Shown here piece by piece: positions 23-7,963 of a stretch of 36,628 bases of DNA. Below the pieces are notes generated by a model. It had not been told where the DNA came from and searched no databases. It worked only from the letters and a program-made list of their open reading frames with translations. The position numbers and the translations under genes were made by a program. Each line of letters opens with the position of its first letter. The first letter of the stretch is position 1. Origin of the DNA: an uncultured Clostridia bacterium (GTDB taxonomy: Bacteria > Bacillota > Clostridia > Oscillospirales > Ruminococcaceae); assembly GCA_947629945.1 (NCBI GenBank), contig CANRFR010000014.1, positions 1-36,628 of the forward strand, read 5' to 3'.

Positions 23-51
23 ATTATATCACTTTTCTTCATATTTGTCTA
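23..51 (-). promoter_or_regulatory. sigma-A promoter of the leftward edge gene
   Basis: On the minus strand, TAGACA (51-46) and TATAAT (28-23) are separated by 17 bases. The -35 lies inside the 3' end of the broken macrodomain gene, so the edge gene has its own transcription start downstream of the ACGX operon. Confidence 0.65.
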
Positions 52-718
52 TATAAAGTTAGAGAATTAGTATTAAATATCACCCTTACCTTGCTTTGTG
101 TTTCGTCAATAAATTTGTTTACCGTTCGCACGGCGATTTCCGCTGCACGTTGGTTTGGAAAGTGAAATTCACCCGTTGAAATACAACAAAACGCCACGCT
201 TTTTATGTCGTTTTGTTCCGCCAATTCCAGACAGGAACGGTAACACGAAGCGAGCCGCCGCTCGTGATTTTCGCGCCGCCTGTTTTCTCCTCGTGTCCCT
301 GTTTTCGCATTATATCCGCGCAGGCTAACCGCAATTGCACTCCCGCAAACGTATGAACTGCGTTGTCGATACAACCGTGACAAGGGCAGAAGCAGCCAAG
401 CAGCGCGGAATTTGCCGCGTTGACTATCGCGCCGCATTTCAGCGTTGTAATATCGCCTTGCCATAAACAAATGTTACCGCGCAAGGGGATAAACTCCTCC
501 GCGTCGGTAACCCCTTTTTGAGCAATCTCGCCGCGCAGATATTCGTCTTGAACCGAGAGAAATTCATTGGAAACGGGTGCGGGCATACGAACATTCATCA
601 GCGATCGAAGAAGTCGTTTTTGTTCGCTCGGATCCGCGGGAATTTTAGCTGCCGAATATTCGGAAGATTCGCTAAGCAGCTTTTTTATAAGAAATATCCG
701 TTGTTCGTTTTGATTCAT
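39..718 (-). pseudogene. broken zinc-type macrodomain protein (protein-ADP-ribose hydrolase family)
   Basis: The first frame (from ATG at 718) encodes the N-terminal helical region, the WQGDITTL and IVNAANS macrodomain motifs and a Cys/His segment (CFCPCHGC). The latter is typical of the zinc-containing macrodomain hydrolases that accompany SirTM sirtuins in Gram-positive bacteria. After GGAKIT (about position 263) the frame is lost. Homologous sequence resumes in another frame at LASCYRSCLELAEQN and ends at 39. From memory of intact relatives, roughly 25-35 residues (the NLP..VLHTVGPI stretch) are missing between the halves. That implies a deletion that also shifts frame, rather than a single sequencing error. 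The start follows the upstream gene's stop by 4 bases, so it is the last member of the ACGX operon. An intact two-gene split is unlikely because the second half has no start site. Confidence 0.8.
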
Positions 719-722
719 TTTA

Positions 723-1334
723 TCACAACCTTTTGACAGCTTTTACCGGGCAGTTCTCAAAACACGCTCCGCAGTGCAGACAATGCTCCGATTGTATCCT
801 GTACGGCGAACCGCTCGTTATACATTTTTGCGGACAGCTTTCCGCGCACGTTCCGCAGCTTATACATTCGCCGGTAATAAAATATCCTTTTGAAGAAATC
901 TTTTTATCGCCGACAGCGTAACTCTCGCGGAAAATCGGCTTTACTCCGAGATTAAAATATTCGATTTCCATATCGCGGACTTCAAATATTATACCGATCT
1001 TTCGAGTGTTGTCGGGATATACGTTCGAGAGATACGGCTGCTCCGAAAAAATTATATTTATCTTTTCCGACTGCTCGTTGTCCGGCACGGGAACTGCTTT
1101 CGCGGAAACCCTTATCATTTCGTTAAATTTTGTATGCGCGAGTATCTGTACTCTGCCGTCCTTGAGAAGCTCACGGCAGAAGTTCTTCCCGCGTGCTGTA
1201 AAGAAATAAAAGCTTTCCTTGTCAAAATGTATCGCGCTCACACAGCGTATCTGCGGCGCTCCGTTCTCGTCGACGGTCGCAAAGGACAATGTGCCGACAA
1301 GCTGTAATTTTTGTAAACAGGTTTTAGCGTCCAT
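723..1334 (-). CDS. pyridoxamine 5'-phosphate oxidase-like protein fused to 2[4Fe-4S] ferredoxin
   Basis: A 203-residue protein. The N-terminal 130 residues or so resemble the split-beta-barrel flavin-binding pyridoxamine-phosphate-oxidase/FMN-binding family (TLSFATVDENGAPQIRCVSAI, then FYFFTARGKN). The last 55 residues form a bacterial ferredoxin domain with two cluster motifs, CISCGTCAESCP and CLHCGACFENCP. A flavin domain wired to two 4Fe-4S clusters suggests an electron-transfer or reductase role; the substrate is unknown. The ATG at 1334 is preferred over a GTG 12 bases upstream because GTGAGGTG sits at good spacing. It begins 8 bases after the nitroreductase stop, so the genes are very likely cotranscribed. 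In this operon it could supply electrons to the nitroreductase or radical SAM enzyme; that is inference. Confidence 0.85.
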   Translation of the reverse strand: MDAKTCLQKLQLVGTLSFATVDENGAPQIRCVSAIHFDKESFYFFTARGKNFCRELLKDGRVQILAHTKFNEMIRVSAKAVPVPDNEQSEKINIIFSEQPYLSNVYPDNTRKIGIIFEVRDMEIEYFNLGVKPIFRESYAVGDKKISSKGYFITGECISCGTCAESCPQKCITSGSPYRIQSEHCLHCGACFENCPVKAVKRL

Positions 1335-1342
1335 AATGCACC

Positions 1343-1918
1343 TCACTCAATTATTTTTACGCGATTTTCACGTCGCGGTTTGCGGTGCGGCTGCTCACCG
1401 TCAATGTATCCGAGAATCACAAAGCAAACCGCCGAATAATTTTCGGGAACGCCCCATTTTTTCATAAACGCCCGCCCTTCGTCGCTCGCGAACGTTTCCT
1501 CGCCGCGTGAAATTATACAGGACGAAATGCCAAGTTCCGTTGCTTGCAGAACCATATTCTCCGCGCAGCAGAACGCGTCCGCTTCTCGAAACAGGAAATT
1601 GCTCTGCCCGAATATTACAATGACCGACGGAGCACCGTAAAATCCGTTTTTTATATTGGGGTCGTCGATATTGCTCGGCTGCTCTTTTGAAACATAAGAA
1701 CCCGCAAGCAGCGAGCGGTCAAATTTAGTGAGATTCATCTGTCCGAGCCGCGTAGTAAGCGCCTTATCGCGTATCCCGATCATCATATTACGTTGTGCGC
1801 CTCCCGCGTTGGGAGCGTAATTCGCAGCCTCCAGAATAAGCTCCATATCGGAGCGGGCGATCTGTTTATCCGTGTATTTTCGTATCGAATGACGCGCCTT
1901 TATAATGTCCATCAGCAT
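1343..1918 (-). CDS. nitroreductase family protein
   Basis: A 191-residue protein of the FMN-dependent nitroreductase fold. It starts with the family-typical MDIIKARHSIRKYTDKQI and continues with a helix ILEAANYAPNAGGAQRN (FMN phosphate side), a central GAPSVIVIFG strand, and AENMVLQATELGISSCII, the usual second FMN-contact helix. The start at 1918 has AAGGAGAT 7 bases upstream and lies 2 bases after the radical SAM stop, indicating translational coupling. Family members reduce nitro or quinone compounds, but homologues also act as dehydrogenases in RiPP maturation. Its position inside the ACGX cassette suggests a peptide-tailoring or redox-support role. The family call is firm; the substrate is unknown. 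Confidence 0.88.
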   Translation of the reverse strand: MLMDIIKARHSIRKYTDKQIARSDMELILEAANYAPNAGGAQRNMMIGIRDKALTTRLGQMNLTKFDRSLLAGSYVSKEQPSNIDDPNIKNGFYGAPSVIVIFGQSNFLFREADAFCCAENMVLQATELGISSCIISRGEETFASDEGRAFMKKWGVPENYSAVCFVILGYIDGEQPHRKPRRENRVKIIE

Positions 1919-1920
1919 AA

Positions 1921-2967
1921 TTATATCTCCTTCCAGCATTGCGGGTCGGCGGCGTAAAAATCGCCGTTTGTTCCCTTGGCAACGGCGGGACAGCCGCGGC
2001 AGTACGCCAGTAACTCGCATTTCGCACATTTCGAGAATTTCGTATACTCGCGGTAACACTCCATACTCGTCACCCATACGTTCGCAAGCCTGTCCTCAAA
2101 AATATTTCCGACCTTGCTTTCCGCGACGCGGCGGCAGGCGTAAATATCACCTGTCGGCAATATCGTGATGTGACAGTTTCCGCAGTTGCAGCCGCCGTGA
2201 ATTTTCCCGTCCGTTTTTTCGGGCAGCTTGAACTCGCCCGTTTCATATTCATAGAGCGTCCAAAGATGATCTTTTTTATTGAAATAAGTATCGCACCCCG
2301 CCGCTTCGTATTCTTTGAATTTTCTGTCGCAAGCCGCAAGCAGAGCGCGGTATTCTTGCGGCGTCATGGAATCGTCAAGTTTGCTGTCACCCGGGCTTCG
2401 CGTGCCGCTTGGAACATACCGCGAAAACGCGAACACGTTTACCCCCGCCTTGACGACCTCGTCGATTATACCCGTGATCTCTCCAATGTTCTTTTTTGAA
2501 ACCGTGGTCATTATAACGCTTCGTATACCCGCGCGGTTTATGCAGCCAACTTTATTCAGCGTGCAGTCGAACGAACCGGGTTTTCTGAACCAGTCGTGCG
2601 TTTCACGCAACCCGTCGAGCGACATCTGATATTTTTCGCAGCCTAGAGCTTTCAGCTTGCGGCAAACCTCGTCGTTCAAATGGAACGGATTTCCCATAAT
2701 CGTAAACGGCACGGAATTCTCGTGGAACAGCTCCAACAGTCTCCAAAAATCGGGGTGAAGTATCGGGTCGCCGCCTGTAAGGTAGAGGTACGGCAGACGA
2801 TCGTACATCTCACAGAAGTCAAGACAGTTGTAAAACGTGTTTTGAATTTGCTCCCACGTCATAGAATCAATCTTTTTGCAAATGTCGCCCGAAAATATGT
2901 AGCAGTGTTTGCAGCGCTGATCACAGTTATCGGTTATGTGCCACTGAAAGGAAAAATAGGATTTCAT
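1921..2967 (-). CDS. radical SAM/SPASM maturase of the ACGX-repeat peptide system
   Basis: A 348-residue enzyme. The N-terminus carries the SAM-cluster motif C15xxxC19xxC22 (CDQRCKHC), followed by GGDP at 65-68, which contacts S-adenosylmethionine. The C-terminal third is a SPASM domain with Cys at 260, 262, 265, 278, 314, 317, 323, 326 and 344, arranged to bind two auxiliary 4Fe-4S clusters. SPASM enzymes typically form thioether or C-C crosslinks on ribosomal peptides. The gene starts 79 bases after a 106-residue peptide made of ACGxxDKPx repeats. That pairing matches the family I recall as 'radical SAM/SPASM domain protein, ACGX system'. GAGGT precedes the ATG by 7-8 bases. The probable substrate is the repeat peptide; the chemistry is not deducible from sequence alone. 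Confidence 0.9.
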   Translation of the reverse strand: MKSYFSFQWHITDNCDQRCKHCYIFSGDICKKIDSMTWEQIQNTFYNCLDFCEMYDRLPYLYLTGGDPILHPDFWRLLELFHENSVPFTIMGNPFHLNDEVCRKLKALGCEKYQMSLDGLRETHDWFRKPGSFDCTLNKVGCINRAGIRSVIMTTVSKKNIGEITGIIDEVVKAGVNVFAFSRYVPSGTRSPGDSKLDDSMTPQEYRALLAACDRKFKEYEAAGCDTYFNKKDHLWTLYEYETGEFKLPEKTDGKIHGGCNCGNCHITILPTGDIYACRRVAESKVGNIFEDRLANVWVTSMECYREYTKFSKCAKCELLAYCRGCPAVAKGTNGDFYAADPQCWKEI

Positions 2968-3016
2968 TTTGAGACCTCGCTTTATGTAAATCGGTTTTCC
3001 GAATTATTTCATTTGA

Positions 3017-3040
3017 CCCGACGGTAATGTTCCCGTCGGG
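3017..3040 (-). promoter_or_regulatory. GC-rich hairpin between precursor peptide and radical SAM genes
   Basis: CCCGACGG and CCGTCGGG form a perfect 8-bp stem with an 8-base loop in the 79-base gap between the repeat-peptide stop and the radical SAM start. On the operon strand it has no U-tract (TCAAAT follows); a T-run occurs only on the plus-strand side. It could protect the precursor mRNA 3' end or cause partial termination, giving more peptide than enzyme. Confidence 0.6.
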
Positions 3041-3046
3041 CGCTTT

Positions 3047-3367
3047 TTACTTGTCGCCAGCTCCGCAAGCAGTACTGCAAGCGGCGGGTTTGTCGGACGC
3101 TCCGCAAGCGGCGGGTTTGTCGGACGCTCCGCACGCGGCGGGCTTGTCGGACGCTCCGCACGCGGCGGGCTTGTCGGACGCTCCGCAAGCGGCGGGCTTA
3201 TCGGACGCTCCGCAAGCGGCGGGCTTGTCGGACGCTCCGCAAGCGGCGGGCTTATCGGACGCTCCGCAAGCGGCGGGCTTGTCGGATGTTCCGCAAGCGG
3301 TAGGTTTGTCACCGGCTCCGCATGCTGTTCCACCGTTAGTCCATTCTGCTAAATCCGAAAGTGCCAT
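3047..3367 (-). CDS. ACGX-repeat peptide (putative RiPP precursor)
   Basis: A 106-residue peptide. It has a short 14-residue leader (MALSDLAEWTNGGT), then nine 9-residue units of the form ACG-x-x-D-K-P-x. Seven central units are identical (ACGASDKPA), unit one is ACGAGDKPT and unit two ACGTSDKPA. The tail is ACSTACGAGDK. There are 11 Cys in total, one per unit plus two in the tail, evenly spaced by nine residues. The ATG at 3367 is chosen because GGAGGT precedes it by 7 bases, whereas the longer frame upstream has no binding site. It is the first gene after a strong promoter. The architecture matches the ACGX-repeat peptides paired with a radical SAM/SPASM enzyme. The very short leader and lack of an obvious cleavage site are unusual. 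The Cys are the likely modification sites (inference). Confidence 0.88.
   Translation of the reverse strand: MALSDLAEWTNGGTACGAGDKPTACGTSDKPAACGASDKPAACGASDKPAACGASDKPAACGASDKPAACGASDKPAACGASDKPAACGASDKPAACSTACGAGDK
3083..3325. repeat. nine tandem 27-bp repeats encoding ACGxxDKPx units
   Basis: In-frame tandem array inside the precursor peptide gene. Units differ mainly by silent changes: the Asp codon of the DK pair alternates GAC/GAT over units 2-5 in gene order, and the Ala codon before Cys is GCG in two adjacent units. This suggests expansion by duplication of one- and two-unit blocks. There are no unique spacers, so this is not a CRISPR array. Confidence 0.95.
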
Positions 3368-3422: not shown

Positions 3423-3451
3423 ATTATATAACGTTCAGAAAACAATTACAA
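3423..3451 (-). promoter_or_regulatory. promoter of the ACGX operon
   Basis: On the minus strand, TTGTAA (3451-3446) and a perfect TATAAT (3428-3423) are 17 bases apart. Transcription would start near 3416 and give an untranslated leader of about 50 bases before the precursor peptide ATG. Confidence 0.75.
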
Positions 3452-3457
3452 GTACGC

Positions 3458-3489
3458 ACTTTTTTATAACATAGTAACTTTTTTGTAAC
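3458..3489. promoter_or_regulatory. tandem 13-bp direct repeat upstream of the ACGX promoter
   Basis: ACTTTTTTATAAC (3458-3470) and ACTTTTTTGTAAC (3477-3489) differ at one base and repeat with a 19-base period. They lie immediately upstream of the ACGX operon -35 box, a position typical of activator sites. The rest of this 351-base divergent gap (3368-3718) is AT-rich and holds only the two promoters. Confidence 0.45.
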
Positions 3490-3718: not shown

Positions 3719-5701
3719 ATGGCTAAACAATCAAACTACAACGACTTAAAGGCGCTAAAGGGTCCGGATCAAGTGCGTCTGCGCCCCGCCGTAATTTTCG
3801 GCTCGGACAGTATCGAGGGCTGCCGTCATTCGGTTTTCGAGATCATCTCGAACTCGATTGACGAGGCGCGCGAGGGATTTGGAAAGCGCATTATAATAAC
3901 GCTTTATGCGGACAAGTCCATAGAGGTGGAAGATTTTGGAAGAGGTATCCCGATAGACTTTAACAAAGGCGAGGATAAGTACAACTGGGAACTGGCGTTT
4001 TGTAACCTCTACGCGGGCGGCAAATTCGATAACAACAGCGGCGAGAACTACTCCTATGCCCTCGGTCTGAACGGTTTGGGTCTTTGCGCGACGCAGTTTG
4101 CAAGCGAGTATATGGACGTTGTGAGCGCGAATGGACAGTGGCTGTACAAGCTGCGTTTTGAAAAGGGATTTAACGTTACAGACAACGAAAAGGGTTTTGT
4201 TCGGTCAAAATGCTCGAATACCGGAACGAAGATACATTGGAAACCCGATTTGGAGGTCTTTACGGACATTGACGTGGGTGTTGAGTACCTCGACGATATG
4301 CTCCGAAGACAGGCAGTCGTCAACGGCGGCATAGAATTTTTACGCAGAGTTGAGAATGAATTTGGTGAATTTGACGAAAAAACGTTCCTTTACGAGGACG
4401 GTATTTTCGACTACTTAAAGGAAGTCGTGGGGGACAAATCGCTGACTACGCCGCAGTATTGGCAGGCTCAGCGGCAAGGTCGTGACCGCGAGGACAAGGA
4501 TGAATACAAGCTGAAAATGAACGTTGCGTTCACATTTTCCAAGGAAATGCACTTTGTGGAGCATTACCACAATTCCTCGTGGCTGGAGCACGGCGGTTCA
4601 CCCGACGACGCAATGAAACGTGCGTTTTTGTCACAGATTGACGGATACCTAAAGGCGAACAACAAGTACAACAAAGGTGAGAAGTCCGTGAAATGGGATG
4701 ATATCGCCGACTGCTTAATATTTATATCTTCTAACTTCTCTACGCAGGCAAGCTACGCTAACCAGACAAAAAAGGCGATTACGAACGTTTTCGTCAAGGA
4801 CGCGATGACGGAGTGGCTCAAACACTCGCTTGAGGTGTATTTTCTTGAAAATCCCGACGAAATTGTGAAAATCGCCGAAAGAGTTTTGGTGAATAAGCGT
4901 TCTCGTGAAAATGCTGAAAAAGTGCGCTCGACAAGCATTGCGAACCTTTCCGCAAAGATAGACTTGACAAACCGTATCGACAAGTTCGTTGATTGCCGCA
5001 GCCGCGACGTCTCCCGCCGCGAGGTCTATATTGTGGAGGGCGATTCGGCACTTGGTTCTGTTAAACTGGCTCGTAATGCCGATTTCCAAGCCGTGATCCC
5101 TGTGCGCGGAAAGATACTGAATTGCCTTAAAGCAAGTTACGACAAGATTTTCAAGTCCGAAATAATCACTAATCTTATAAAGGTACTTGGGTGCGGCGTT
5201 GAGGTAAAGTCAAAGGCAAATAAAAATCTCAATTCGTTTAATATTGAGAATTTACGTTGGAATAAAGTCGTGATTTGTACCGATGCCGACGTGGACGGAT
5301 TTCAAATACGAACCCTCATTCTTACTATGATCGAAGAGCTTTGCCCGACTCTTATCGAACGAGGTTTTGTGTATATTGCCGAATCGCCTTTGTATGAAAT
5401 AAACAGTGGGCAAAATACCTATTTTGCATACACGGAAGCCGAGAAAACCAAGATATTGGGCAAGATAGGCGATAAGAAATACACTATACAGCGGTCTAAA
5501 GGTTTGGGCGAGAACGATCCGGATATGATGAGTCTCACCACGATGAATCCCGAAACGCGCCGTCTTATCAAGGTCACGCCGACCGACGCGGAGCGTACTC
5601 GGAAGATGTTCGATGTGCTGCTCGGAAACGATCTTGACGGGCGCAAGGAGTTTATTCGCGAGAACGGCAGTCGTTATCTTGAAACGGCAGATATAATGTA
5701 A
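3719..5701 (+). CDS. parE: type II topoisomerase ATPase/Toprim subunit (ParE/GyrB family)
   Basis: A 660-residue subunit of an ATP-dependent type II topoisomerase. The GHKL ATPase part shows EIISNSIDEA (about 41-50, Mg-binding Asn45), DFGRGIP (72-78) and the ATP lid GLNGLGL (116-122). The Toprim part shows EGDSA with catalytic Glu440 and the metal triad D522-A-D524-V-D526. PVRGKILN replaces the usual PLRGKILN, and GDSALGS replaces GDSAGGS. The sequence is clearly divergent from canonical GyrB, so this is probably the accessory topoisomerase pair (topoisomerase IV-like) found in many Clostridia beside a separate gyrAB. It forms the complex with the next gene, 39 bases downstream. AAAGGTGAT precedes the ATG. 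The family is certain; the gyrase versus topoisomerase IV assignment is less so. Confidence 0.9.
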   Translation: MAKQSNYNDLKALKGPDQVRLRPAVIFGSDSIEGCRHSVFEIISNSIDEAREGFGKRIIITLYADKSIEVEDFGRGIPIDFNKGEDKYNWELAFCNLYAGGKFDNNSGENYSYALGLNGLGLCATQFASEYMDVVSANGQWLYKLRFEKGFNVTDNEKGFVRSKCSNTGTKIHWKPDLEVFTDIDVGVEYLDDMLRRQAVVNGGIEFLRRVENEFGEFDEKTFLYEDGIFDYLKEVVGDKSLTTPQYWQAQRQGRDREDKDEYKLKMNVAFTFSKEMHFVEHYHNSSWLEHGGSPDDAMKRAFLSQIDGYLKANNKYNKGEKSVKWDDIADCLIFISSNFSTQASYANQTKKAITNVFVKDAMTEWLKHSLEVYFLENPDEIVKIAERVLVNKRSRENAEKVRSTSIANLSAKIDLTNRIDKFVDCRSRDVSRREVYIVEGDSALGSVKLARNADFQAVIPVRGKILNCLKASYDKIFKSEIITNLIKVLGCGVEVKSKANKNLNSFNIENLRWNKVVICTDADVDGFQIRTLILTMIEELCPTLIERGFVYIAESPLYEINSGQNTYFAYTEAEKTKILGKIGDKKYTIQRSKGLGENDPDMMSLTTMNPETRRLIKVTPTDAERTRKMFDVLLGNDLDGRKEFIRENGSRYLETADIM

Positions 5702-5740
5702 AGTCAGAACTTAATTTGCTTTAATAACGGAGAGTATAAA

Positions 5741-7963
5741 TTGAAGAAAAAGACAACTAAAAAAACGCAGTCCAATGCGGTAAACGCGTATATAGAAGGC
5801 TCGGGAAAGGTCGTTGAGAGCAGTATCGTCGATACGCTTGAAGAAAACTATATGCCTTATGCAATGAGCGTTATCGTTTCAAGAGCGCTTCCCGAGATTG
5901 ACGGCTTCAAGCCTTCTCACCGAAAGTTATTATACACAATGTATAAAATGGGCTTGCTGAACGGCGCACGAACAAAATCCGCGAACATCGTCGGGCAGAC
6001 AATGAAACTCAACCCGCACGGAGACGCGGCAATCTACGAAACAATGGTGCGCTTGGCGCGCGGAAACGAGGCTCTGCTGCACCCCTACGTTGACAGCAAG
6101 GGTAACTTCGGCAAGGCGTACAGCCGCGATATGGCTTACGCGGCCAGCCGTTACACCGAAGCGAAGCTCGACAGCATAAGCGCCGAGTTGTTTGCCGATA
6201 TCGACAAGGACGCGGTCGATATGGTGCCCAACTACGATAACTCAATGTTGGAGCCGAGCCTTTTTCCGGTGCGGTTTCCCGCAGTTTTGGTGAACTCGAA
6301 TTTCGGACTTGCCGTGTCGATGGCGAGCAATATCTGTTCGTTCAACCTCGCCGAGGTATGTGAAACGGCGGTCGCGCTTATCAAAAATCCCGAACATAAC
6401 GCGCTTTCAACCCTTAAAGGTCCCGATTTTCCGGGCGGCGCCTATATCGTTTACGATGAAACCGAAATGGAAAAGATTTACAGAACGGGTTTGGGTTCGG
6501 TAAAGGTTCGCGCAAAATACTCGTTCGACGCGGACGCGCGCTGTATAGAGGTGACGCAGATACCGCCCACGACTACTGTTGAAGCCATTATAGACCGCGT
6601 TGTTGATCTTGTAAAGGACGGGAAAGTCAAGGAGATAAGCGATGTTCGCGATGAAACAGACCTCTCAGGTTTGCGTCTGACGTTTGATTTGAAGAAAGGC
6701 TGCGACCCGGATCAAGTAATGTTGAAGTTATTTAAGTTATCACCTTTACAAGAAAATTTCAACTGTAATTTTAACGTGCTTATCGCGGGAACGCCGCGCG
6801 TAATGGGCGTTTACGAGATACTGAACGAATGGACGGAATTCCGCAGACAGTGCGTAAAGCGCAGAATTTACTTTGATTTAGGTAAAAAGAAAGAAAAACT
6901 GCACTTACTGCAAGGCTTAAAAAAGATATTAATGGACATAGATTATGCAATTAAGTTAATTAGGGAAACTGAGGAAGAAGCCGAGGTCGTACCGAATCTG
7001 ATGATCGGGTTCGGCATTGACGAGCCGCAGGCGGAATATGTTGCGGAAATCAAGCTGCGACACATCAACAGAGAGTATATCCTCAAAAGAACCGAGGAAA
7101 CCGACACTTTATCGTCGGAGATACAAGAAATGGAGGATATCTTAAATTCTCCCAAGAAAATTGACAAGGTTATTATTAACGAACTTAACGAAGTTGCGAA
7201 GAAATACTCGCAACCGCGCCGAACTCAGTTTCTGTACGACGTTGCGGACGATTACATTATTGAGGAGGAGCAGCCCGAGGGCTATCCCGTCAATGTCTTC
7301 TTCACGCGCGAGGGCTATTTCAAGCAAATTACGCCCAAATCCCTCAGAATGGCAAGCGAACAGAAGCTCAAGGAAAACGATGAAGTAATCTTTACCGCCG
7401 AGGTCTTGAGCACTTCGGAACTGCTGTTCTTTACGAATCAATTCAAGTGCTACAAGTCGCGCTGCGGAGATTTCCCCGAAACGAAAGCGTCTGTTATGGG
7501 CGATTACATTCCCGCGAAGCTCGGAATGGAGGACGGCGAAATGCCGATTTATATGGCGGTGACGGAGAATTTCTCGGAAATGTTGGTGATTTTCTTTAAG
7601 AACGGCAAATGCGCCAAGATACCGTTTTCGTCATATTGCACAAAAACAAAGCGGAAGCTGCTTCTTAACGCGTTTTCCGATATTTCGCCCGTTGTCGCGA
7701 TGTTCACGATAACCGAGGACTGCGATTTTGTGCTAAAATCCACGGCAGGAAAGATGATTTTGTTCAATACGGCGCTTATTCTCGCGAAATCCGCGCGTGA
7801 TACTCAGGGAGTTCAGGTTATGCGCTTAACAAAAGCGGAGCTTGCCGACGCGTATCTTGCGGAAAGCGTTGAGATTGGTGATATAGAGCAGTTCCGCATA
7901 AAAACTGTGCCCGCCGCGGGGCTGCTTTCCGATGATGATATAGACCAATTAAAGTTAATTTAA
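5741..7963 (+). CDS. parC: type II topoisomerase cleavage subunit (ParC/GyrA family)
   Basis: A 740-residue DNA cleavage and rejoining subunit. The winged-helix part shows MPYAMSVIVSRALPEIDGFKPSHRKLLY, close to the family consensus, followed by NPHGDAAIYE and SRYTEAKL. In the last, Tyr138 is the expected DNA-linking tyrosine. The C-terminal region (about 490-740) shows beta-strand repeats but no clear GyrA-box, favouring a topoisomerase IV-like role over gyrase. It starts with TTG at 5741, supported by GGAGAG 6 bases upstream; there is no nearby in-frame ATG. It directly follows the ParE-like gene and must be its partner. The fhs gene starts 19 bases after its stop, so transcription probably continues. 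Confidence 0.9.
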   Translation: MKKKTTKKTQSNAVNAYIEGSGKVVESSIVDTLEENYMPYAMSVIVSRALPEIDGFKPSHRKLLYTMYKMGLLNGARTKSANIVGQTMKLNPHGDAAIYETMVRLARGNEALLHPYVDSKGNFGKAYSRDMAYAASRYTEAKLDSISAELFADIDKDAVDMVPNYDNSMLEPSLFPVRFPAVLVNSNFGLAVSMASNICSFNLAEVCETAVALIKNPEHNALSTLKGPDFPGGAYIVYDETEMEKIYRTGLGSVKVRAKYSFDADARCIEVTQIPPTTTVEAIIDRVVDLVKDGKVKEISDVRDETDLSGLRLTFDLKKGCDPDQVMLKLFKLSPLQENFNCNFNVLIAGTPRVMGVYEILNEWTEFRRQCVKRRIYFDLGKKKEKLHLLQGLKKILMDIDYAIKLIRETEEEAEVVPNLMIGFGIDEPQAEYVAEIKLRHINREYILKRTEETDTLSSEIQEMEDILNSPKKIDKVIINELNEVAKKYSQPRRTQFLYDVADDYIIEEEQPEGYPVNVFFTREGYFKQITPKSLRMASEQKLKENDEVIFTAEVLSTSELLFFTNQFKCYKSRCGDFPETKASVMGDYIPAKLGMEDGEMPIYMAVTENFSEMLVIFFKNGKCAKIPFSSYCTKTKRKLLLNAFSDISPVVAMFTITEDCDFVLKSTAGKMILFNTALILAKSARDTQGVQVMRLTKAELADAYLAESVEIGDIEQFRIKTVPAAGLLSDDDIDQLKLI

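Follow-up and report, generated by a model that had tools for sequence, protein, structure and literature searches.

We analysed a stretch of 36,628 nucleotides from an uncultured Clostridia bacterium of the Ruminococcaceae (assembly GCA_947629945.1, contig CANRFR010000014.1, positions 1 to 36,628; hereafter the window), near the beginning of which a Cys-rich repeat peptide and a radical S-adenosylmethionine (SAM) enzyme, together the ACGX system, are encoded. The ACGX pair probably belongs to a redox/electrophile-stress cassette of gut Clostridia, where it is accompanied by a divergent HxlR gene, a putative operator, oxidoreductase genes and genes for a zinc macrodomain and a class M sirtuin. 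More specifically, we propose that ACGX is an intracellular, radical SAM-modified peptide of this HxlR-controlled cassette and not a secreted antibiotic, a reading for which we consider the chances evenly balanced.

The peptide gene (3047..3367, minus strand) encodes 106 residues, among them nine ACGxxDKPx units followed at the end by ACSTACGAGDK, and its product scored 71.5 bits against the model TIGR04341 (cut-off 28). The radical SAM/SPASM enzyme (1921..2967, minus strand; 348 residues) scored 568.7 bits against TIGR04340 (cut-off 400). Since both proteins exceed the curated cut-offs, the pair is the system named ACGX by NCBIfam, whose two models name only the peptide and the enzyme. A nitroreductase-family gene (1343..1918, PF00881) and a gene whose product joins a PNPOx flavin domain to a ferredoxin domain with two clusters (723..1334, PF01243 and Fer4) follow on the same strand, the gaps between the four genes being 79, 2 and 8 bases. 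A preliminary description of this DNA, made from its letters, had reported the same four genes, units and gaps, a promoter, and a SPASM enzyme with its own Cys-repeat substrate in a computationally named system; the coordinates and scores bear this out, and a promoter-like site is indeed present. The gene set does not stop at 723, however, and runs on into a zinc-macrodomain gene of NF003163 type (39..718, minus strand; model match 251-718) that is frameshifted in the assembly. Three elements had escaped that description: the divergent HxlR gene, the operator common to these cassettes, and the pair of zinc macrodomain and class M sirtuin.

Among 396 genomes of the family, 31 matched the enzyme model at E <= 1e-60, with 28 of them exceeding its cut-off, and 24 matched the peptide model, 23 of the latter being among the 31. 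In the remaining peptide genome (G279), the contig stops 32 bases past the peptide match. The peptide model missed eight of the 31 enzyme genomes; seven of these have a peptide by eye (G038, G241, G246, G277, G321, G385 and G403), and the eighth, G061, starts at a contig edge. In a sample of the phylum, ACGX enzymes with ACG peptides were found in four further families. From a scan of contigs, the best 80 of 544 confirmed loci (594 matching stretches) were kept, and this set therefore leans to near relatives; the 80 are mostly metagenome-assembled genomes (MAGs) by title, many of them from animal guts. Cultured commensals carry the cassette as well, for instance Ruminococcus bromii YE282 (L109) and Butyrivibrio sp. 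INlla14 (L136). The short contigs that hold two other ACGX loci, L107 and L124, bear the titles Succinivibrio and Sphaerochaetaceae, through transfer or mis-binning.

A search with the ACGX models and a listing of the neighbours of all hits had been suggested in the preliminary description. The peptide proved to lie beside the enzyme in 114 of the 117 ACGX loci with a pattern-found enzyme frame. Of the other three, L063 and L084 begin at a contig edge, and L133 has 6 kb upstream of its enzyme, in which no ACG peptide was found. This close pairing speaks against one alternative, in which the repeat protein would buffer metals or thiols without being modified and the enzyme would act elsewhere or on few sites. 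Repeats of Cys and Asp are common metal ligands, and the number of CG units indeed varies from 2 to 15 per peptide (the lowest counts include cut or N-interrupted frames), both of which count in favour of such a buffer. Nevertheless, given how consistently the two genes stay together, we regard it as improbable.

The neighbourhood of the enzyme was surveyed by clustering the surrounding open reading frames, identifying cluster representatives and counting on 115 non-duplicate loci. Clusters 8, 10, 11 and 13 were taken as shadow frames by position and strand, most clusters of seven loci or fewer were left unidentified, and the flanks in the first neighbour count were only 1.5 kb for most whole-genome loci. 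Of the 95 loci with at least 1,490 bases of upstream sequence, 83 have a divergent HxlR gene no more than 3 kb away on that side. The Cys near the HxlR N terminus, which we take to be at the redox-sensing position of YodB and HypR, fits the pattern in 63 of 65 proteins, the remaining two having Cys then Asp. On the enzyme side, the place of the nitroreductase can be taken by an unrelated, quinone-reductase-like medium-chain dehydrogenase/reductase (MDR): 71 of 106 loci had the nitroreductase only, 31 MDR only, one both and three neither (Fisher p 3.3e-22 for mutual exclusion, loci being treated as unrelated). Further along, where 3.9 kb or more of downstream sequence was available (56 loci), a zinc macrodomain was present in 38 cases, a sirtuin in 40, either in 41 and both in 37. 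A representative macrodomain scored 353 bits against NF003163 (cut-off 272), and QG replaces HG in all 37 clustered sirtuins of ACGX loci, this being the mark of class M sirtuins (PMC4518038). At the level of whole genomes, a macrodomain over the cut-off was present in 26 of the 31 enzyme genomes versus 69 of the 365 others (Fisher p 2.5e-13, genomes again treated as unrelated), and it lay within 5 kb of the enzyme in 18 of the 31, the frameshifted window copy counted.

The same survey bears on the possibility that ACGX is a secreted bacteriocin or signal of the ribosomally synthesized and post-translationally modified peptide (RiPP) type, whose precursor would be cut and exported. RiPP maturation is usually recognised by a radical SAM/SPASM enzyme encoded beside a small peptide with Cys, and a leader-like N terminus (MALSNLxGW or MSEMLKRVA) precedes the repeats. 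However, the well-conserved neighbours to which an identity could be assigned included no transporter, exporter, peptidase or immunity gene (this covers neither every small cluster nor the clusters taken as shadow frames); they are redox, HxlR and ADP-ribosylation genes instead. A cluster judged by eye as ABC-transporter-like was seen in 5 loci at about +5.2 kb. Taken with this gene content, a secreted product appears very improbable.

As controls, we used 20 macrodomain loci (L145-L164) from genomes without the ACGX enzyme, hand-picked for their flanks from the 69 such macrodomain genomes while their neighbours were still unseen. A sirtuin was present in all 20, a divergent HxlR gene in 13 and the PNPOx-ferredoxin gene also in 13; nitroreductase, MDR and ACG peptide were found in none of the 20 by the searches made. 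In some controls the ACGX slot is occupied by an NAD(P)H-binding/NmrA-like gene (PF13460), in others by a gene without Pfam match that resembles the metallo-beta-lactamase fold by eye. Because these ACGX-less cassettes share the sirtuin, HxlR and, in 18 of 20 cases with up to two mismatches, the same operator, the combination of ACGX peptide, radical SAM enzyme and nitroreductase/MDR resembles a module that has been inserted into a broader cassette of HxlR, sirtuin and macrodomain. The PNPOx-ferredoxin gene, being present in 13 of the ACGX-less cassettes, is probably not reserved for maturation. Thus, the genes of the four-gene cassette outlined initially are all there, but as a definition of the system that set is incomplete, with one member exchangeable and another shared with cassettes that have no ACGX.

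The ACGX-linked macrodomains do not form one clade. On the macrodomain tree the ACGX label needs 9 changes, at least 5 of them forced by well-supported branches (the bootstrap was not fully settled), although the label is more clustered there than in 500 shuffles. For the sirtuins, 8 changes of the label are needed, at least 2 of them forced by well-supported branches. From these repeated changes on both trees, it follows that the link with ACGX was gained or lost more than once.

In the window genome, the macrodomain gene starts 4 bases past the PNPOx-ferredoxin gene (at 718, minus strand) and is split by the frameshift, which may be a real lesion or an assembly error; the contig ends there. 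Its zinc loop reads CFCPCHGC, which by eye fits Cx4HxC, and relatives have intact copies over the cut-off. A class M sirtuin gene is located on contig C166 (locus L165; 4020-4922, minus strand), at most 60 bases from the contig end and reading inwards, just as if it followed the window macrodomain gene. Its motif YTQGDYG is of the QG type (by eye), and on the tree it stands beside ACGX-linked sirtuins, with weak support. An HxlR homologue, 70% identical to the cassette HxlR of L136, is encoded on contig C85 (L166; 5186-5665, plus strand), away from the cassette and operator and beside genes that by eye resemble potassium-transport genes.

Some 90 bases upstream of the peptide start, there is conserved sequence whose end reads AAAGTGCGTACTT. 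In the window, the core of this putative operator matches exactly at 3450..3462 (minus strand), and the conserved stretch reaches upstream to about 3492. With up to two mismatches, the operator was found in 94 of 104 regions upstream of ACGX peptides (90 of 99 without duplicates) versus none of 104 shuffled regions. Of 60 ACGX loci that have a macrodomain or sirtuin, 54 possess it, as do 11 of 13 long-flank loci that have neither. Elsewhere in the window's own genome, the 16-mer around the operator has one further place, with two mismatches, and a reversed control pattern has three. We infer that HxlR regulates the cassette through this putative operator.

A sigma-70-like promoter, TTGTAA-17-TATAAT, overlaps the operator end in the window (3423..3451, minus strand); it comes from a consensus scan, by which 2 promoter-like sites were found in the window versus 1.1 expected by chance. 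Between the peptide and enzyme genes there is a hairpin with an 8-bp stem (3017..3040, minus strand), with T residues following on the plus strand. Such folding is common in the relatives: of 108 peptide-enzyme spacers, 103 were folded, and 90 of these had z-scores below -2 against plain, not dinucleotide, shuffles. As the promoter adjoins the peptide gene and the hairpin separates the two genes, the peptide is probably produced in excess over the enzyme. More peptide than enzyme is made in many RiPP clusters.

The peptide repeats themselves obey a simple rule. In the window peptide, 10 of the 11 Cys carry the CX3D/E motif, and the array is a 27-bp tandem repeat of 8.3 copies with 95% matches. 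Since a near relative, L003, whose enzyme is 93% identical, has a peptide with a single full unit plus the terminal one, array length seems to change fast among relatives, bearing in mind that assemblies can collapse repeats. In 108 distinct peptide frames, the +4 residue of 679 Cys (at least three of which lie outside arrays, two from L131 and one from L107) was Asp in 380 cases, Glu in 32, Cys in 244, and another residue or the end in 23. Ala stood at -1 of 662 and Gly at +1 of 677 of these Cys. The filter by which the peptides were chosen required at least two [APST]CG[AST], so conservation at -1, +1 and +2 is partly selected, while +4 is unaffected. This filter took 113 of 118 loci with a pattern-found enzyme frame; it left out L016, which is not ACGX, L054, whose peptide it missed, the contig-edge loci L063 and L084, and L133. 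The pattern for the enzyme frame in turn overlooked some of the ACGX loci, L012, L045 and L049 among them.

Counted from the acidic residue, Cys is found at -4 of 380 of the 411 core Asp versus 32 of the 403 core Glu. Among 342 units, the codon at the Asp position was GAC in 191, GAT in 103 and a Glu codon in 31, so that the Asp is kept while its codon varies synonymously. The acidic +4 rule holds for both leader types, with 263 Asp and 31 Glu of 310 in the main one and 31 Asp of 32 in MSEMLKRVA. A pattern for Cys-less ACGxx-like frames gave 14 matches; eight are leader or linker stretches, and the other six we read as degenerate units of the repeat, namely one AYGAAG and five ALG[AV]AS, the latter found at three loci of a single genus; none of the six has kept the Asp. 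We also considered whether double-Cys units carry an extra acidic residue, but this is contradicted, by eye, by units such as ACGTACGAGDKKP (L044).

With 380 of 411 core Asp placed at Cys+4, which is the PapB motif, the regular ladder of thioethers that had been envisaged for this peptide is plausible. In freyrasin, the ranthipeptide made by PapA/PapB, the Cys sulphur is reported to be joined to the beta carbon of Asp or the gamma carbon of Glu in CX3D/E (PMC9413430); that motif is repeated and both acidic residues are used, as in ACGX. Unlike PapA, ACGX has a second motif, CX3C, and a near-invariant ACG. On the strength of the repeat pattern, a PapB-like thioether from Cys to Asp or Glu at +4, with -2 Da per CX3D/E unit, is a tentative assignment that we hold possible, if somewhat short of probable.

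In the main rival chemistry, each A-C-G would become a 5-thiooxazole (-4 Da per Cys), and the product would be a copper- or soft-metal-binding peptide, a radical SAM counterpart of the EGKCG captophorins/bufferins. The named family scoring best on the window enzyme after TIGR04340 is the thio(seleno)oxazole maturase SbtM (TIGR04082, 162.3 bits), reported to remove four hydrogens from Cys in forming thiooxazole (PMC11002830); enzymes of heme biosynthesis and further SPASM enzymes come next. The near-invariant Ala and Gly, which surround also those Cys that have no Asp, fit this chemistry. Repeated EGKCG peptides share the X-C-G repeat with ACGX; they are described as carrying 5-thiooxazoles made by MNIO enzymes and as binding copper, with a proposed role in copper detoxification or stress, and for one cluster, which has no protease nearby, an intracellular fate was proposed (PMC12668002, PMC12538549). 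Yet the SbtM score is well under the cut-off of 350, and the match begins only at profile position 198, about 195 N-terminal profile positions being without counterpart. Moreover, thiooxazoles have no need for Asp or Glu at +4 or for the joint loss of Cys and Asp, the Ala/Gly context is partly a product of the peptide filter, and no metal transporter or metal regulator was found among the neighbours identified. The EGKCG enzymes belong to MNIO/DUF2063 whereas the ACGX enzyme is a radical SAM protein, and the portions of those reports that we draw on describe no Asp-at-+4 rule. It is this coupling of Cys and Asp that leads us to prefer thioethers, and thiooxazoles appear rather unlikely.

The SbtM model matched all 10 members of our A1 set. 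Among 329 genomes of the phylum, there was no SbtM enzyme over the cut-off, and for want of such sequences for a tree the SbtM/PapB question was judged from profile scores alone. The eight sub-threshold SbtM matches comprised the window, ACGX enzymes accompanied by ACG peptides at five loci (L186, L187, L188, L190 and L191), the pattern-unresolved L192, and L185, for which an ACG peptide is not listed. Solved structures gave 8 distant radical SAM matches to the enzyme, the best being SkfB with 59 bits. An AlphaFold2 model of the enzyme, built with 10 sequences, was discarded (mean pLDDT 57, C-terminal part unreliable). An anti-phage role was likewise dropped: PADLOC gave weak matches of two viperin models to the enzyme (47 and 30 bits) and nothing for the other six proteins.

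Several observations weigh against an HxlR-controlled, thioether-bearing redox peptide. The PapB model (NF047865) gave the window enzyme 62.8 bits, well under its cut-off of 340, so that with 162 bits for SbtM the characterised family closest by score is a thiooxazole maker. In addition, 244 of the 679 Cys have Cys, and neither Asp nor Glu, at +4 (unit CGxACGxxD) and are not explained by CX3D/E. Units of the same array, as well as the many near-identical MAG loci, are not independent. At 12 of 95 loci, including that of the window, no HxlR gene adjoins the peptide gene, and a GTTAC...GTAAC-like inverted repeat was detected in only 44 of 99 upstream regions by the patterns used. Finally, neither macrodomain nor sirtuin accompanies ACGX in 15 of the 56 loci with long downstream flanks.

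The proposed intracellular redox peptide can be compared with the extended SirTM operon, described as containing GcvH-L, LplA2, Zn-Macro, SirTM, OYE and LLM (PMC4518038, PMC11490716). Both have a Zn-Macro protein with Cx4HxC, a SirTM with QG, oxidoreductases and a link to oxidative stress, which for ACGX is a probable one. In the ACGX cassette, however, the peptide and the radical SAM enzyme appear to replace GcvH-L and LplA2, the nitroreductase/MDR and PNPOx-ferredoxin stand in the place of OYE and LLM, and HxlR with the putative operator sets the cassette apart. GcvH-L and LplA2 were not among the inspected neighbour clusters, no model search for them being made. The SirTM target is reported to be lipoylated GcvH-L, likely modified at Asp, and the binding of GcvH-L to the OYE enzyme of that operon to require lipoylation (PMC4518038). 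The words "radical SAM" occur in neither of the two SirTM papers. Full-text searches by system and model names found no paper on the ACGX pair, and the cassette, its operator and the CX3D/E rule were not among the literature matches listed, most subscription papers being outside their scope. The pair is already known by name; its HxlR, operator, macrodomain and sirtuin context is added here.

A model of how the cassette might work assumes the order HxlR (divergent), operator, ACGX peptide, radical SAM enzyme, nitroreductase or MDR, PNPOx-ferredoxin where present, zinc macrodomain and class M sirtuin. Under redox or electrophile stress, HxlR would release the operator, leading to abundant peptide and little enzyme, and the enzyme would then modify the Cys repeats, with one thioether per CX3D/E and the first Cys of each CGxACGxxD unit staying free. 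The modified peptide would remain in the cell and partner NAD(P)H oxidoreductases as a polyvalent redox-active or thiol/metal-handling carrier, while the sirtuin/macrodomain pair would add and remove ADP-ribose on a target. Such a layout of carrier, equipping enzyme, oxidoreductases, eraser and writer would parallel the SirTM operon. The modified peptide might itself be the sirtuin substrate, with Asp/Glu being ADP-ribosylated after Cys modification and the macrodomain reversing this, thereby switching the redox peptide off and on. This switch, which would mirror lipoyl-GcvH-L of Staphylococcus and Streptococcus with radical SAM modification in place of lipoylation, is an analogy that we consider unlikely to hold, and the peptide is equally unlikely to be the substrate: the pair is absent from those same 15 of 56 loci, and it also occurs without ACGX. 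Even so, a small, enzyme-linked repeat peptide with regularly spaced acidic residues, encoded in the same operon, is a concrete candidate for the target of these ADP-ribosylation enzymes, and such a role would move a named family of radical SAM peptides from an antibiotic frame to the redox-stress physiology of gut anaerobes.

As for the remaining features of the window, the PNPOx-ferredoxin gene has an alternative GTG start at 1346, with which it would overlap the nitroreductase gene. Divergent from the peptide gene, two large genes that by eye resemble the topoisomerase IV subunits ParE and ParC (3719-7963, plus strand) occupy the position that HxlR has in relatives.

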